Shown here piece after piece: positions 6,126 to 39,645 of a stretch of 64,000 nucleotides of DNA; the first letter of the stretch is position 1, and every line of letters begins with the position of its first letter. Under the pieces are notes generated by a model. It did no database searches. It saw only the letters and a program-made list of their open reading frames with translations, and had not been told where the DNA came from. This DNA comes from Oscillospiraceae bacterium (GTDB taxonomy: Bacteria; Bacillota; Clostridia; Oscillospirales; Ruminococcaceae). Position numbers and translations under genes: made by a program. The DNA is taken from assembly GCA_017518255.1 (NCBI GenBank), contig JAFWVK010000050.1:1-64000 (forward strand), read 5' to 3'.

Positions 6126-8690
6126 TTACTGTTCTTCTCTGCGCCGGAGTTTGCCGGACTGTCTGACCGTGAAAACACCGAAGACAGTCATCAGCAATGC
6201 GCCGGCCATAATCAGCAGGTTTTTCAGGGAGTTATTGCCGGTCTGCGGCAGATTAACAGGCTCGGAAGCGCTGTTTGTCCCGACACCCGTATCTGCGTTC
6301 ACGGTGTAATAATCGAGATCGGAACCGTTTTCGTCGCTGAGAACAATCACGGCTTCGTCCTCCGGTACGGGAATGCCGTCGAGGACTGTGACGACGCTTG
6401 CGGAATCCGGACGGATGCCGTGCTTTGCCTCGTAATCGTTCAGTGCCATATCCATAAGCTGGTCATCGGAATATGTGTATGCTTGCGGTGCATCCGCGAT
6501 GCGTTCAAAACGGATGTCCATATTGGAAAGCTGAAGCTCATTCCGCGGCAGTTCATCGTCTGCGGAAAGTGTCATCAGAATCTGATTGAATTCGCCCTGC
6601 TCATCTGCGACATACAATGCATAGAGATACGCTCTTTCGCCGCTCAGGGTGTAGAAATACTGGAGCTTTGCAAGACCTTCGGATACGCTTTCCACACTGC
6701 CGTCCGCATAGGTTATGAGAACAAAGCGCGCGTTTGTATCTGCACTGTGCGTGAATCTGAGGATTGTCTCAGTCTCGCAGTCAGTCTGCTGCCATTCGCC
6801 TGCCAGATTCTGCGTGCTGAGACCTGCCGGTGCGACGACTGCGTCATAGAGCTGCAAATTATCGTCGGCATCATACGGTGCATCCTGCCGTGTAAAAATC
6901 AGCGGATCCTCACCGGCTGTTCTGATCTCATCCAGCGGAAGATCACCGTTCACATCGAACATGAGGAAGACCTCTTCGCCCGCATAGAGAACATAGTAGT
7001 AGGTACGGCTGCCGTCCCCGTCAAGCTGATACTGCAGTCTGACAGAGCCGAAGGCCGTCAAATCCTGCATATCATTTTCAGAAACCGTCATCGTAAAGCT
7101 GCCTGCATACGGACAATAGCTGTCGAAGAGGAAAGACACTGCGCAGCCTTCCCAGTTGCCGAACAGTACATACGGATTGATCCATTCGCCGTTCAGTGCT
7201 GTAACGCCGGCGCCGGATTCCGGCACATCTTCCGCATCGTAGAAGCCGTAATCGTTCGGCACAGCCTCCGCGTGCGTCAGAATCTGCTCACCCGTCTGCC
7301 CGACGGTCAGCGTATTCCGGTTGTCTGCGCTTGATTCCTGTGCGCCGATCCAGAATTCCCCGTTGCTGTCATAGAAGCAGTACCAGATCTGTACACTGCA
7401 GTCCGGGAACATCTGATAGGACGCGGTGACTTTACCGGTCTGCACCGAATCAGAATTGCTGCCGCGGCAGGTGTAGACCGCACAGCCCGTTTCTTCATCA
7501 TAGCTGACGGTCACAGTACCGGCTTCCTCATATTCTCCCGTCATACCCCATTCCGGCATGATGATCTGATTTTTGAGAATCCATTCACCGCAGATGTCCG
7601 TGCCTTCTGCCCTGCGCACGGAATCGTCACGAACCAGTCTGCCGCCGTCTTCCAATGCGATCGTGTCTTCCTTATAAAGCGTGCCGGTCAGGAACACTGT
7701 ATCCGTCTCGGTGTTACGGAACAGAAACAAAGGAGCTTCCGTGCTGCCCTGATCGCTTTCATCAATCACACTGACCGTTCCGACCGTGTTGACCATATTT
7801 CCGTTCTCATAGCTGCCGGTGATGCAGATAAAGCTGCCGTTTTCATCTACGGTCAGCGCACCTTCGGTCTGTCCGCCGCTGTTTTTCACGAGCCATTTGC
7901 CGGTCAGCGCAGCAGGCGCTGTCATTTCAGCAACAGGTACTGCCGCATCGGAAACCAGTCTGACTGCACCGTCCTGCCCGCTGATGAATACGCCGACGTC
8001 ATCAGAAGCACAGCAGTTTGCGAAGCAGCCGCCGGATGCCGTGTCGCGGAATGTGTACCAGATATTTGTACTGCCGTCAGGATACACATCATAAGAAACC
8101 GTGATTGTTCCCACTGAACTGACGCTGCCCTTCGCATCGGTATAGGTGTAGGTGCCGTCCTCCGAAACTGTCACAGTGCCGTCTGCTTCGTATTCGCCGC
8201 TCTGCTCGCTGAGCACCTGATAAGAGTAGCTGCCTGCGATATCGGCTGCACATGCCGTCTCATAGTCCGCAGTATCCTTTACAAGCATCGCGGAACCGTC
8301 CTGTCCGATCGGCAGCACATCACTGCCTGTATCCGGCTTCCGGCAGCCGAACCGGAATTCACCGCTGTTATCATAGAAGCTGTAGATCTCCGATGCGGTT
8401 CCGTCCGGATGCTCGTCGTATTCGATCGTGACCGTACCGCCGTATGCGGTGTTTTTCGCATAGCTGTAATAAGAATATGTCCCGTCCTCATACACCATCA
8501 CATAGCCGGTGCTTTCACCGCCTTCCTGAAGGAACCATCTGCCTGTGAGATCGGCAGGCGATGCAGCCTGTACCGTTTCTGCGGCGGCGGCAGGCGCCTT
8601 TTTTTCTGCGGCTTCCGCCTGCACGGCTGCTGCCGGAACCGAAGCAAGGATCATGCTGAGAACTGTAAGACAGGTAATGAGCTTTTTCAT
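6126..8690 (-). CDS. LPQTG cell-wall anchored protein with about six lipocalin-like repeats
   Basis: An 854-residue surface protein with a Sec signal peptide (MKKLITCLTVLS...AVQAEA), a low-complexity Ala-rich linker and about six repeats of 95-110 residues. The repeats share a pattern of GRW/GSY/GEW start, a TVTVSEDGTYTY-like strand, YDxYPDGS, an aromatic FYDxxGEFxxG hairpin and a LVxD end. The C-terminus is a sorting signal: LPQTG at 814-818, a hydrophobic stretch and an RRREE tail. The ribosome site GGAGGT is 7 bp before ATG. The repeat resembles the C-terminal domain of the SH3b lipoprotein at 8953-9999, and both genes share an operator. Its function is unknown; binding of a small ligand or envelope component is a guess from the barrel-like pattern. 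Confidence 0.85.
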   Translation of the reverse strand: MKKLITCLTVLSMILASVPAAAVQAEAAEKKAPAAAAETVQAASPADLTGRWFLQEGGESTGYVMVYEDGTYSYYSYAKNTAYGGTVTIEYDEHPDGTASEIYSFYDNSGEFRFGCRKPDTGSDVLPIGQDGSAMLVKDTADYETACAADIAGSYSYQVLSEQSGEYEADGTVTVSEDGTYTYTDAKGSVSSVGTITVSYDVYPDGSTNIWYTFRDTASGGCFANCCASDDVGVFISGQDGAVRLVSDAAVPVAEMTAPAALTGKWLVKNSGGQTEGALTVDENGSFICITGSYENGNMVNTVGTVSVIDESDQGSTEAPLFLFRNTETDTVFLTGTLYKEDTIALEDGGRLVRDDSVRRAEGTDICGEWILKNQIIMPEWGMTGEYEEAGTVTVSYDEETGCAVYTCRGSNSDSVQTGKVTASYQMFPDCSVQIWYCFYDSNGEFWIGAQESSADNRNTLTVGQTGEQILTHAEAVPNDYGFYDAEDVPESGAGVTALNGEWINPYVLFGNWEGCAVSFLFDSYCPYAGSFTMTVSENDMQDLTAFGSVRLQYQLDGDGSRTYYYVLYAGEEVFLMFDVNGDLPLDEIRTAGEDPLIFTRQDAPYDADDNLQLYDAVVAPAGLSTQNLAGEWQQTDCETETILRFTHSADTNARFVLITYADGSVESVSEGLAKLQYFYTLSGERAYLYALYVADEQGEFNQILMTLSADDELPRNELQLSNMDIRFERIADAPQAYTYSDDQLMDMALNDYEAKHGIRPDSASVVTVLDGIPVPEDEAVIVLSDENGSDLDYYTVNADTGVGTNSASEPVNLPQTGNNSLKNLLIMAGALLMTVFGVFTVRQSGKLRRREEQ

Positions 8691-34220: not shown

Positions 34221-34245
34221 GGAAAAAAGTGTTATATTCTTCGTT
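34221..34245 (+). promoter_or_regulatory. Candidate ECF-sigma promoter of the sigma/anti-sigma operon
   Basis: GGAAA (34221-34225), a 16-bp spacer and CGTT (34242-34245) match the general ECF pattern GGAAC-N16-CGTC. The position, about 40 bp before the sigma gene, fits autoregulation. Confidence 0.5.
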
Positions 34246-34285
34246 TGAATTCCGTCAGTACTTACAGAGAGGGAGGTGAAGCAGT

Positions 34286-34843
34286 GTGGACGATGCAGAA
34301 ATCATCAAACTGTATCAGCAGCGTGACGAACGGGCATTACAGAACACAAAAGCCCGTTACGAAGCGCTTTGCATGACAGTCGCATACAACATGCTCGGCA
34401 GCCGCGAGGACGCGGAGGAATGCATGAACGATGCAATGATGTGTCTGTGGCAGGCGATTCCGCCTGCTGAACCGGAATCCCTCGGTGCATATCTCATCAC
34501 CGCAGTCCGGAATGCGGCAAGGGACAAACTGGCATATCGGAACGCGCAGCGGCGCGGCGGCGGACAACTCTCTGTCGCAATCGACGAACTGACAGAATGC
34601 CTGCCCTCGGCAGAACAGCCGGAACAGGTACTGAACAGCATTGCACTGCGGGATGCATTCCGCAGATTTCTGCCCACACTGAAACCCGCTGCCCGCATGA
34701 TCTTCCTGCGGCGTTACTGGCTCTGCCTGACAGCGCAGGAGGTTGCGGAAGAGACAGGATGCTCTGTCAGCCGCGTGAACATGTCTCTGATGCGCACACG
34801 CAAAAAACTGAAAACATTTCTGGAAAAGGAGGAATTGCTGTGA
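34286..34843 (+). CDS. ECF-type RNA polymerase sigma factor (GTG start)
   Basis: A 185-residue sigma-70-family factor: region 2 (about 10-85: NMLGSREDAEECMNDAMMCLW, GAYLITAVRNAARDKL) and region 4 (about 125-180: FRRFLPTLKPAARMIFLRRYW, LTAQEVAEETGCSVSRVNM). The start is GTG with GGGAGGTG upstream. The stop overlaps the next gene at GTGA. The partner encoded next is a membrane protein with an N-terminal cytosolic segment, so this is a membrane-signal-controlled sigma factor. Confidence 0.9.
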   Translation: MDDAEIIKLYQQRDERALQNTKARYEALCMTVAYNMLGSREDAEECMNDAMMCLWQAIPPAEPESLGAYLITAVRNAARDKLAYRNAQRRGGGQLSVAIDELTECLPSAEQPEQVLNSIALRDAFRRFLPTLKPAARMIFLRRYWLCLTAQEVAEETGCSVSRVNMSLMRTRKKLKTFLEKEELL

Positions 34844-36426
34844 AACCGGAGGATTATTTCAAAATCATGGACTGCGCTTCTGAGAAAGACATCACGGAAA
34901 TGATGCAGCACCGCCGCTTCCGGCAGATTCCGTCCGGTGAGGTGAATGCAATGAAACAGTCCGGCCATAAGGAGAAGAAAGAGATCCGCATGACCCGCCG
35001 CGGAATTGCGACGGGTACGGCAGTCGCAGCGGCTCTGCTGGTGCTGAATATCGGGTTCGGCGGATTTATGCTGCACAAGGCTGCAGATGATCCCGTCAGC
35101 AGCGCAGATATCGAGGTCGTTGAGGTGTCAGAAGCTGCAACGGAAACAACAGCCGCGATAACAGGGACAGAGGAAAACGTTACGACAGCAGAACAGATAA
35201 CTGCTTTCACACAGACTGTTTCAGATGAAACAGCACCGAATCAGACTGTCGCAGAAACCACGGCATTGCCGGCAAAGCAGACACCTGCAGCGGCTGATAA
35301 AACCGAAGCGCCCAAGAGCGGCAAACTGACATATTCGCTGGTTCCGGCAGACAGAGCCTATGAATCCGCAGGAACGAACAAAAAAGCACCGGTTGTCTTC
35401 CATGCAAAGGCGGGCGAACAGATCAAAATGCAGCTCAAAGTTCAGAATGATCCGGGCGTGGCATTTTTCGGTGCTCTGTATGATATGACAAATTTCAATC
35501 TTCTGTCGCAGACGAATTTGCATTATTACGAGGGCATTGTCAACTGCATATATTACGGCGGTGAGCAGAACAGTGAGAGATGTGTTCTTTCGATCGGCGG
35601 AAACGGGAACGGCAGCACAAAGGCGCCGGACGGTGCGGCGCTGGCGGAATGCACACTGATTGCACCGACTCAGCCCGGACGCTATGTCGTTCAGGAATAT
35701 GTGCCCACAGTAAATTCATTTGTGGTGAATCCGGACGGTACGGAGACCAAGATCACCGATTATTACTATAATGCTTATGCAGATGCCGGGCAGACAATCC
35801 ATATTGACTGCGAGATTCTCGGTGCTGAGATCATCGTGGATGAGGCAGAGGGTACACAGAAATCCGGAATTGATCCGGAAACAGCGGAAGGACCGACTGT
35901 TTATATCGGGGCGGTGACCGCACATGCCGGTCAGAAGAATGTTCCGGTCAATGTGTATGTCAGAGGCTGTGATCCGTTTGTATCCGGTACTCTGAGATTC
36001 GGGTATGATTCCGCGCTGAAATCGCTGCTGTATGACTGCTATGCAGAATACGATTCAGATGTGACAGAAGACAGCCGGCTTGGTATCAGTGTTGACGGCA
36101 CTCTGCTGGAAAATGTAATGACGCTGAGGAGCTCTTCGATTCACGGAAATACGATTATGGTATCTTTCAACAATTACCGCGCATTCGGATATGACAGCAA
36201 AGGTATCCCGACTGTCTTCCGCAACGGCGAAACGCAGGCGGATGCTGCAATCACAGAGGACGGTGTCCTGTTTACAATGTATTTCGATATGCCGGAAGAA
36301 TGCGGACAGTACCGGATTTTTGCGAGCGAGGGAACCCTCGGCGGCGGCGCACAGGATGAACCGGGCTGCCTTCCCAATCAGACAGTTCAGAACTTCATTC
36401 CGTGTGATATCACGGTTATTCCCTGA
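34840..36426 (+). CDS. Membrane anti-sigma factor with cohesin-like ectodomains
   Basis: 528 residues, GTG start with AAGGAGG, overlapping the sigma gene by four bases. A cytosolic part of about 60 residues (VKPEDYFKIMDCASEKDITE, no HxxxCxxC zinc motif) is followed by one transmembrane helix (about 64-82) and a Thr/Ala-rich linker. Two beta-rich extracellular domains follow. The first (about 165-330) has VVFHAKAGEQIKMQLKVQND then PGVAFFGALYD. The second (about 350-528) has VYIGAVTAHAGQKNVPVNVY and FVSGTLRFGYDSAL. Both follow the cohesin strand pattern (gain-of-benefit sequence V-x-A-x-x-G-x-x-V-x-V, then a YD turn). This would let the anti-sigma sense dockerin proteins or assembly state; inference, medium to low certainty. 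A generic carbohydrate-binding sandwich is the alternative. Confidence 0.7.
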   Translation: MKPEDYFKIMDCASEKDITEMMQHRRFRQIPSGEVNAMKQSGHKEKKEIRMTRRGIATGTAVAAALLVLNIGFGGFMLHKAADDPVSSADIEVVEVSEAATETTAAITGTEENVTTAEQITAFTQTVSDETAPNQTVAETTALPAKQTPAAADKTEAPKSGKLTYSLVPADRAYESAGTNKKAPVVFHAKAGEQIKMQLKVQNDPGVAFFGALYDMTNFNLLSQTNLHYYEGIVNCIYYGGEQNSERCVLSIGGNGNGSTKAPDGAALAECTLIAPTQPGRYVVQEYVPTVNSFVVNPDGTETKITDYYYNAYADAGQTIHIDCEILGAEIIVDEAEGTQKSGIDPETAEGPTVYIGAVTAHAGQKNVPVNVYVRGCDPFVSGTLRFGYDSALKSLLYDCYAEYDSDVTEDSRLGISVDGTLLENVMTLRSSSIHGNTIMVSFNNYRAFGYDSKGIPTVFRNGETQADAAITEDGVLFTMYFDMPEECGQYRIFASEGTLGGGAQDEPGCLPNQTVQNFIPCDITVIP

Positions 36427-36957: not shown

Positions 36958-37683
36958 ATGAATCCCGATGCAAAGCAGCTCATTTCCCGTGTGATGACAG
37001 CAAAGAAAGACAATGATGCCGCGGATGCACTGATTGCCGATTATATGCCGTTCATCCGCTCCGAGGCCGCGAAATACCTGAAACGGCAGCCGGAGCAGGA
37101 GGATGATGAGCTGAGCATTGCAATGTTTGCCTTCTATGAAGCGATCGGCAGCTATTCCAGACTTCGCGGCGCATTTCTCAAATATGCAGCACTCCAGATC
37201 CGCAGCAGACTGATTGATTATTACAGACGGGAAAAAAAGCACAGCGGACAGATTTCTCTCAATTCCGCCGCTGACGACGACCAGACAGAACTGATCGGAA
37301 CACTCGCCGATCCGCATGACGACTATGAGGAACACGATATCCGGGAAGCAACAAAGGAAGAAATCCGGGAGCTTTCCGAACAGATGAAAGAATTCGGTGT
37401 GTCCATGACCGATATTGCTGAGAATGCACCGAAACAGAACAGAACGCTTGAAATCTGCAAAAAAGCGATCTGCTATGCACGGCACAATCCGGATGTGCTG
37501 GAGGACTTCCTGCGCACCAAGCGCGTGCCGCTCGCCAGACTTGCCGAGGGCGCCGATGTCGAACGAAAACCGCTGGAACGCCACAGGAAGTATCTGGTTG
37601 CCGTGCTGCTGATCTGCACAAACGGCTACGAAATTCTTCGCAGCCATATCATGCAGGTCCTGAAAAGGGGGGAAGAATCATGA
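36958..37683 (+). CDS. sigI: RNA polymerase sigma-I factor
   Basis: A 241-residue SigI-family factor. Region 2 carries YMPFIRSEAAKYL, DDELSIAMFAFYEAIGSY and LRGAFLKYAALQIRSRLIDYYRREK, the SigI signature. The C-terminal domain carries IRELSEQMKEFGVSMTDIAE and PLARLAEGADVERKPLERHRKYLVAVLLI, matching the SigI_C HTH. In cellulolytic clostridia SigI factors switch on cellulosome genes when the partner RsgI senses polysaccharide outside the cell. The ribosome site GGGGAGGG is strong. The stop overlaps the rsgI start at ATGA. Confidence 0.93.
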   Translation: MNPDAKQLISRVMTAKKDNDAADALIADYMPFIRSEAAKYLKRQPEQEDDELSIAMFAFYEAIGSYSRLRGAFLKYAALQIRSRLIDYYRREKKHSGQISLNSAADDDQTELIGTLADPHDDYEEHDIREATKEEIRELSEQMKEFGVSMTDIAENAPKQNRTLEICKKAICYARHNPDVLEDFLRTKRVPLARLAEGADVERKPLERHRKYLVAVLLICTNGYEILRSHIMQVLKRGEES

Positions 37684-38639
37684 AGTATCTGGTAACGGAA
37701 TGTCATCCCGGCTATGCCATGCTGATGGATGAGGAATCACGCTTCGTGCGCGCAGCCAATCTGCACTATGAAGTCGGACAGACCGTAACGGAACCCGTGC
37801 TGATGAACGATCTGAAGCCGAAGCACCGGATTTCGTTGCGGACGGTGACGGGAATCGCCGCAGCAGCAGCCTGCCTTCTGGTTCTCAGCGCCGTCGGGCT
37901 GAAACAGCATATGCGCAGGAAAAAGCCGGAAACGGAATCCGTTGTCATCATGGTCGAGGAAAAGCGCTATGAGGTGGCACTGAACCGCAGCGGTGAGGTA
38001 ATCGAGGCAATCCAGATTCAGCCGGAAAATGCCGATCAGAGCTCCGTGATTGATATGTCAGAAAATCAGCACATGTCTCTCTCTGCGTTTCTCGGCTCTA
38101 TGCTAAAGGACTCGCTCGATCAGGGTGATATTGACAATGAAAATCCGGTTCAGATCTATCTCTATACCGAAAATGAGAATTCCTATCAGGAATATAAGGC
38201 AGAGATTGAGGAAGAGACCGCAAAGCTCAGCCTGAAAGCAGAGGTTCAAGAGCTAGAAAAACAGAAGGGTGCGCATGAGCCGCCCGAACCTCCGAAGCCT
38301 GCCGATCCGCCGAAGCCGGATGCCGATCCGCCCAAGCCCGGCAACGAACCGCCGGTGCCGGATCCAGCAAAAGACGAGAAACCGCCGCTTCCGTCTGAGC
38401 AGATTGCGCCGCCTGCCGCGCCGGATCCTGCAAAGGATGAAAAACCGCAGCCGGAACTGCCGACACCGCCGGAAACACCGGAGCACCCGGATGCACCTGT
38501 TCCGCCTTCTGCACCCGCTGCACCGGATCAGCATGATCCGGTACGCGCTCCCCTGCCCGATCCGGCAGCCGAGTTGCCACCGGCAGACAAAGCGGCACCT
38601 TCGCCCGGTGTGCCGGATCGAGCCGGTCTGATTCTCTGA
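37680..38639 (+). CDS. rsgI: RsgI-type membrane anti-sigma-I factor with proline-rich ectodomain
   Basis: A 319-residue protein. An N-terminal RsgI domain (1-45: YLVTECHPGYAMLMDEES, FVRAANLHYEVGQTV) binds sigma-I, followed by one transmembrane helix (about 55-73). The juxtamembrane part (VIMVEEKRYEVALNRSGEVIEA) corresponds to the conserved RsgI segment VxIDxNPSIExxxNxxGxVI but has lost the NPSxE core. From about 200 the ectodomain is Pro/Lys/Glu/Asp-rich (repeats such as DPAKDEKP) with no carbohydrate-binding module. The family usually senses cellulose, xylan or pectin through a CBM; here the signal must be something else or reach it through a partner, perhaps the proline-rich protein encoded next. 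Confidence 0.88.
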   Translation: MKYLVTECHPGYAMLMDEESRFVRAANLHYEVGQTVTEPVLMNDLKPKHRISLRTVTGIAAAAACLLVLSAVGLKQHMRRKKPETESVVIMVEEKRYEVALNRSGEVIEAIQIQPENADQSSVIDMSENQHMSLSAFLGSMLKDSLDQGDIDNENPVQIYLYTENENSYQEYKAEIEEETAKLSLKAEVQELEKQKGAHEPPEPPKPADPPKPDADPPKPGNEPPVPDPAKDEKPPLPSEQIAPPAAPDPAKDEKPQPELPTPPETPEHPDAPVPPSAPAAPDQHDPVRAPLPDPAAELPPADKAAPSPGVPDRAGLIL

Positions 38640-38871: not shown

Positions 38872-39645
38872 ATGAAAAACAAGAAGATCGTATCCTTTGT
38901 TGCATCGCTGACTATGCTGGCGACTGCATCCGGACTGACCGCATTCGCGAGCAGCCTTCTCAGTGAGAAGGCAGAAACACCGGAGATCGTGACCGAAGAA
39001 GAGACCGCAGAAGACGTTGCAGAGGAAACCGAGGAAGAAACCGAAGCAGCAGAAGAGGCTGCCGAAGAAGAAGCTGTGAACGAAGAAGCAGCTGAGGTTC
39101 TTGAGGAAATCGCAGACGAAGTTCCGGACGTAATCGCCGAGACTCTGGAAGAGCTCCAGCCGGTCAAACCGATCAGCAAGGGCGAGATTCTTGCTAAAAT
39201 CGACGAAGTTTTTGATTTTGACGCACAGGATTTCAAGGATGACGATGCAAAGGCAGCATGGTTTGCTTTCTGTGAAGAGCTGAAGGCTTCCGAGCCGAAG
39301 AAAGCAGAGCCGCCGGTCGCTCCGGTTGAGGGTGAAGAGCCGATCGCACCGCCTGCTCCGGTTGAGGGCGAAGCACCGATCGCACCGCCTGCTCCGGTTG
39401 AGGGTGAAGCACCGATCGCACCGCCTGCTCCGGTTGAGGGCGAAGCACCGATCGCACCGCCTGCTCCGATCGAGGGTGAAGCACCGATCGCACCGCCTGC
39501 TCCGATCGAGGGTGAAGCACCGATCGCACCGCCTGCTCCGATCCATGATGACAAAAAGCCGGAACCGCCCGCCGGTCCGGCAGCACCCCACGCAGCAGTT
39601 GAAGCGGAGACTGTAACGGAATCCGCTGAGGCAGAAGCCGAATAA
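38872..39645 (+). CDS. Secreted proline-rich 12-residue-repeat protein of the sigma-I locus
   Basis: A 257-residue exported protein with a signal peptide (about 1-27, ending AFAS). A very acidic region (30-95) is rich in EE and AEE, followed by a small predicted helical domain (PISKGEILAKIDEVFDFDAQ, KAAWFAFCEELKA). Six tandem 12-residue repeats APVEGEAPIAPP (last ones APIEGE) precede an acidic tail. There is no sorting signal, dockerin or SLH domain. The acidic and Pro-rich composition complements the Lys/Pro-rich RsgI ectodomain, and both promoters are of the sigma-I type, so it may be a wall-spanning partner or feedback ligand; this is inference. The ribosome site AAAAAAGGAG is strong. Confidence 0.8.
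   Translation: MKNKKIVSFVASLTMLATASGLTAFASSLLSEKAETPEIVTEEETAEDVAEETEEETEAAEEAAEEEAVNEEAAEVLEEIADEVPDVIAETLEELQPVKPISKGEILAKIDEVFDFDAQDFKDDDAKAAWFAFCEELKASEPKKAEPPVAPVEGEEPIAPPAPVEGEAPIAPPAPVEGEAPIAPPAPVEGEAPIAPPAPIEGEAPIAPPAPIEGEAPIAPPAPIHDDKKPEPPAGPAAPHAAVEAETVTESAEAEAE
39319..39534 (+). repeat. Six tandem 36-bp coding repeats
   Basis: Exactly six in-frame 36-bp units encoding APVEGEEPIAPP, three APVEGEAPIAPP and two APIEGEAPIAPP; a seventh partial unit follows. High DNA identity between units makes copy-number change by slippage or recombination likely. Confidence 0.9.

Follow-up and report, generated by a model that had tools for sequence, protein, structure and literature searches.

The window, i.e., the whole 64,000-nucleotide stretch of Oscillospiraceae DNA analyzed here, carries at positions 34286-36426 two overlapping genes that we read as the operon of an ECF sigma factor and its putative membrane anti-sigma factor. 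The first gene (34286..34843, + strand) encodes a 185-aa protein, which was assigned to the ECF sigma factors (subtype A) because Sigma70_r2, Sigma70_r4_2 and TIGR02937 scored over cut-off within this length and because the gene of a membrane protein overlaps it downstream. The second gene (34840..36426, +) begins with a GTG codon and encodes 528 aa; its identification as an anti-sigma gene was based on its sequence, its translation and 11 homologues located behind ECF genes. An overlap of both genes had been claimed in an earlier note on this DNA and was found in the sequence at 34840, where the stop codon of the sigma gene and the GTG start share 4 bp (GTGA). The host genome (2.99 Mb, 98% complete) belongs to a cellulosome-producing rumen genus, and the relatives found by name are MAGs that carry the label Ruminococcus sp., Clostridiales or Oscillospiraceae; goat or sheep omasum was the source of several.

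With regard to the topology of the anti-sigma protein, its cytoplasmic N-terminus (residues 1-59; 34840..35016, +) is presumed to be the sigma-binding part, given its position before the transmembrane (TM) helix and its conservation with anti-sigma paralogues found behind type-A sigma genes. A Pfam search of this N-terminus returned no anti-sigma domain, and the operon structure, together with the topology, suggests that it retains the sigma factor on the cytoplasmic face of the membrane. Coupling to an ECF gene and the same topology were found in 11/11 homologues, sigma binding being putative in this class assignment. A single TM helix follows (residues 60-78; 35017..35073, +), as the earlier note had proposed: this is the only strongly hydrophobic segment of the protein, with a mean hydropathy of 1.97 compared to 0.76 for the next best, and the AlphaFold2 model places a helix at residues 57-78. 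It leads into a Thr/Ala-rich extracellular linker (residues 79-161; 35074..35322, +), recognizable in the sequence and modelled with a pLDDT under 50. The remainder is made up of two beta domains, previously placed at residues 165-330 and 350-528 and delimited by the AlphaFold2 model at about residues 162-334 (D1; 35323..35841, +) and 348-528 (D2; 35881..36423, +).

The identity of these two domains was not evident from single-sequence searches. No cohesin was detected in the window protein by Pfam or NCBIfam, with PF00963 giving no score, and phmmer found no direct match for the protein alone among PDB sequences. Matches to GltJ and flagellin, which were weak, far below cut-off and mostly located on the TM helix and the Thr-rich linker, were set aside. 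These negative searches are what would be expected if D1 and D2 were generic Ig-like beta sandwiches rather than cohesins, and Foldseek, when run on the whole two-domain model, likewise ranked integrins among the cohesins. It has been reported, however, that standard profiles miss many Ruminococcus cohesins, which are recovered by AlphaFold2 (PMC11557425), so that the failure of the single-sequence searches is not surprising; the mixed Foldseek ranking, in turn, arose from the simultaneous matching of two domains, and it was remedied by folding D1 alone.

Profile comparisons linked both domains to cohesins. D1 matched repeats in large secreted proteins of sister species; two of these proteins contain 6-7 Pfam cohesin stretches each (E to 1e-37), and some single scaffoldin repeats of the D1-matching type were also missed by Pfam. 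A profile of the sister-species repeats reached the Ruminococcus flavefaciens ScaB5 cohesin 5n5p (1.3e-9), and in hhalign, the D1 orthologues and the scaffoldin cohesins of this genus aligned end to end at 99.8% and E 3.6e-30. Against PDB sequences, the D1 profile alone gave one match, again 5n5p (E 0.0015), and the D2 profile gave nine sequences at E<1, all of them cohesins and headed by ScaB3 (5aoz/5m2o, about 5e-5).

The predicted structures agreed with the profiles. Values of pLDDT were roughly 70-95 across D1 and D2 in the full-length AlphaFold2 model, and D1 modelled alone reached a mean of 90.4. In structural comparisons, the best Z was 15.8 for D2 and 12.9 for D1, both well above the quoted chance background of 7-8, and the top 41 entries were cohesins in each case; for D2, the best non-cohesin reached 9.6, as against 10.8 on the cohesin side of the gap. 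This ranking of both domains, the near restriction of the PDB targets of the sequence profiles to solved cohesins, and the end-to-end homology of D1 with scaffoldin cohesins led us to reject the generic Ig-like fold, to which we now attach hardly any probability. Thus, the identification of both ectodomains as cohesins, first proposed from their strand pattern, is well supported by profile homology and predicted fold; cohesins led in the profile and structure-prediction checks of both domains, and a non-cohesin fold was not obtained.

The same plan of a short N-terminus, TM helix, T-rich linker, D1 and D2 was present in 11 proteins from 6 genomes (six species) of the rumen genus. An ECF gene precedes each of them, mostly with an overlap of 4 bp, and the tandem cohesin pair was retained in all 11; this recurrence, always behind an ECF gene, places the architecture beyond chance. 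Outside the genus, it was found neither in 397 sampled genomes from 126 genera of the family, at the search sensitivity used, nor in a scan of GTDB contigs, at the sensitivity of that scan. The sigma partners of the 11 proteins fall into three well-separated subtypes (A, B and C), and the sigma tree conflicts with the ectodomain tree, in which two strongly supported clades each mix subtypes; the fewest subtype changes required were 2 on the sigma tree and 4 on the ectodomain tree. This conflict indicates that the cohesin pair has probably been swapped between sigma/anti-sigma pairs of different ECF subtypes, as a sensor module would be. In other species of the genus, paralogues behind type-A ECF genes have a related N-terminus and TM helix and differ from the window protein in the ectodomain, which is weakly DUF4179-like (below cut-off) instead of a pair of cohesins.

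An arrangement of two cohesins, a long linker and a TM helix would also fit an anchoring scaffoldin, i.e., a protein serving mainly as a membrane tether for dockerin proteins or scaffoldins and connected to the sigma factor only secondarily. The genus also has lipoproteins that contain just one D2-like domain, which is in keeping with such a role. However, the translational coupling to an ECF gene in every case, the unrelated ectodomains carried by the same N-terminus behind ECF genes, and the anchoring of R. flavefaciens-type cellulosomes by sortase-linked ScaE (PMC11557425) all speak against it, and we regard a mainly tethering function as quite improbable. The lipoproteins themselves are small, apparently lipidated products of sister species (L062:1362-2132(-) and L063:1156-1977(-)), in which the Pfam cohesin model scored at best E 0.073; they may be single cohesins that are anchored in the membrane and escape standard profiles.

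The genome contains 125 dockerin hits; in the window, the Pfam cut-off for dockerins is exceeded by seven ORFs, in agreement with the dockerin-rich region described before. Furthermore, the genome encodes several cohesin proteins and a scaffoldin with multiple cohesins, whose C-terminal region is X-dockerin-like and which was named by resemblance to R. flavefaciens ScaB; this scaffoldin is located at a contig edge (C51), away from the pair in the window. Cohesins were present in 30/30 genomes of the genus searched. In four species, one anti-sigma copy lies 5-11 kb from a scaffoldin cluster: three genomes (G002, G015 and G006) have a type-B pair 10.5-11 kb from scaC-, scaA- and scaB-like genes, and a fourth (G009) has one about 5 kb from scaA/scaB-like genes. 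A candidate M50 site-2 protease is also encoded in the genome of the window (E 1.7e-58), as it is in 14/14 control genomes. Elsewhere in the window, GDSL esterase, CBM35 and GH26 domains occur together with an internal dockerin in one protein (286-2679, +), and another of 854 aa (6126-8690, -) matches an LPXTG-type cell-wall anchor as its sole Pfam domain at E 0.001.

We also compared the regions upstream of the sigma genes. Type-A genes share an ECF-promoter-like element, GTKAKRTTY-N12-YCGTCA, represented in the window by GTTATATTC-N12-CCGTCA (34231..34257, +), which is a candidate ECF promoter for the sigma operon, and type-B genes are preceded by TGCAACA-N15-CGTATAC, which is likewise ECF-promoter-like. 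Across 30 genomes, 12 of the 21 exact matches to the type-A pattern preceded type-A sigma genes, including three genes outside the set that had defined the pattern; the reversed pattern, used as a control, gave 2. In the genome of the window, the promoter of the operon was the only exact match, and hence the sequence pattern makes autoregulation of the sigma operon likely. No target beyond the operon was found in this type-A search, which yielded 18 one-mismatch sites with no obvious cellulosomal target among them. For the type-B pattern, one further conserved pair of sites was observed outside the sigma operons: two close species (L134 and L136; site at 1501) each have one upstream of a gene for a secreted protein of 465 aa, a gene that may be under the control of the type-B sigma factor.

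Among known systems, the nearest in general design is SigI/RsgI of Clostridium thermocellum and Acetivibrio, where a cellulosome producer likewise uses an alternative sigma factor and a one-TM anti-sigma factor with an extracellular module. SigI lacks region 4, whereas the sigma factor in the window is an ECF protein in which this region is present; moreover, RsgI domains were not matched in its anti-sigma partner, which has two cohesins where RsgI sensors carry CBM, PA14, GH or Fn3-like modules. As the defining features of SigI/RsgI are absent, we classified the pair as ECF/anti-sigma with a new type of sensor, and the contrast with CBM-bearing RsgI sensors drawn in the earlier note holds. 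An ECF-type anti-sigma factor bearing a GH5 module occurs in C. thermocellum. No report of a cohesin-bearing anti-sigma factor was found in the part of the open-access literature covered. A further parallel, by analogy only, is SigV/RsiV of Bacillus subtilis, which also couples an ECF sigma factor to a protein-receptor anti-sigma factor: RsiV, which differs in its ectodomain, has been proposed to be a direct lysozyme receptor that subsequently undergoes regulated proteolysis (PMC4183432). By profile, D1 and D2 are most closely related, among solved structures, to the R. flavefaciens ScaA/ScaB cohesins (5n5p, 5m2o and 5aoz), which sit in scaffoldins and bind dockerins, whereas the cohesins of the window are located on an anti-sigma factor and their binding is putative.

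The fold, the homology and the genomic context together suggest dockerins as the likely ligand class of D1 and D2. In CohScaB5, the platform contacting the dockerin comprises Ala-775/777, Phe-812/852 and Tyr-809/810 (PMC5934362), and in CohScaB3, Ala-38 and Leu-79 are critical, with A38Q abolishing binding (PMC5429695). When platform residues were assigned by hand from weak profile alignments, D1 of the window presented Ala, Phe, Val, Leu and Ile at CohScaB5 positions 775, 777, 809, 810 and 812, and D2 presented Ser at Ala-38 of CohScaB3 and a hydrophobic residue in the Leu-79 strand. Within the limits of these alignments, the presumed 8-3-6-5 face has thus kept its hydrophobic character and changed the scaffoldin-specific residues of CohScaB5 and CohScaB3, a combination that fits a changed specificity as well as a loss of dockerin binding.

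If dockerin binding has been lost, the pair would switch by regulated proteolysis through repurposed cohesins that were recruited from scaffoldins and now respond to another signal (a polysaccharide, a cell-surface protein, or envelope or shear stress) or serve mainly for dimerization. In a tree of D1 domains and scaffoldin cohesins, at least two label changes were required, compatible with one or two recruitments from scaffoldins; the D1 branches are long and identity to the scaffoldin cohesins is about 25%, which, like the altered binding face, would suit such a change of function. Non-cellulosomal modules of cohesin fold do exist, one of them (2xdh, a solved structure) being among the structural matches of D2, and the other anti-sigma sensors of cellulosome producers read polysaccharides. 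Against this, the mapped platform positions are still hydrophobic, the tandem arrangement has been kept in every homologue, and the entire genus is cellulosomal, with the architecture confined to it among the genomes sampled. Overall, we consider a repurposed cohesin possible, if unlikely.

A receptor-type anti-sigma factor is, in our analysis, the most economical reading, and we give an even chance to the specific proposal that the protein is a receptor for dockerin-bearing proteins and releases its sigma factor by regulated proteolysis. In its favor, we counted the kinship of D1 to the scaffoldin cohesins of the genus, the exchange between subtypes, the linkage to sca genes and the M50 protease; counted against it were a binding face unlike that of scaffoldins (as judged by weak alignment), 2xdh, the restriction of exact promoter matches to the operon itself and the lack of a Pfam anti-sigma domain. 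In this receptor model, the N-terminus would keep the sigma factor sequestered at the membrane's inner face, and the two extracellular cohesins would act as the receptor, most likely for the dockerin of one or more of the ~125 dockerin proteins or of a scaffoldin. The signal read in this way may be an excess of enzymes, free scaffold or attachment to fibre, and ligand binding may either activate or repress. Binding of the ligand, or its loss, would expose the ectodomain or stalk to a site-1 protease, and a site-2 protease of the M50/RseP type would cut next and free the sigma factor, a two-step release suggested by the RsiV and RsgI precedents. Using the conserved ECF-like promoter, the freed sigma factor would then transcribe its own operon, and a small set of cellulosomal genes would probably come under its control as well; transcription would in this way be coupled either to dockerin protein supply or to the assembly of the cellulosome.

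A more specific version of the receptor model, which we put forward tentatively and think rather unlikely as it stands, assumes that dockerin proteins for which no scaffoldin cohesin is free bind to the cohesins of the anti-sigma factor and trigger proteolysis and sigma release, with scaffoldin and/or dockerin genes being upregulated in response. Docking sites and enzymes would in this way be kept in balance, most clearly so in the case of the type-B copies beside the sca cluster. The known role of cohesins is that of structural sockets in cellulosomes, and the cellulosome sensors so far described in the literature compared detect polysaccharides and no cellulosome proteins. A cohesin pair on an anti-sigma factor, if confirmed, would directly and physically connect cellulosome assembly to gene control, and the cell may thereby sense its own enzymes or scaffolds and then adjust gene expression. 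The regulation of ruminococcal cellulosome genes has been stated to be open (Dassa et al. 2014, PMC4081043). For designer-cellulosome work, the pair may offer a ready dockerin-responsive switch.

Directly after the ECF pair, a SigI-type sigma gene and the gene of an RsgI-like anti-sigma factor with a Pro-rich ectodomain were observed (36958-38639, +), so that two different sigma/anti-sigma pairs adjoin each other; SigI models matched with E to 6.6e-57, below their own cut-offs, and RsgI_M with E 0.0014, also below cut-off. Further downstream (38872-39645, +) lies the gene of a secreted acidic protein that has no Pfam or NCBIfam family over cut-off and contains tandem repeats of the EGEAPIAPPAPV type.
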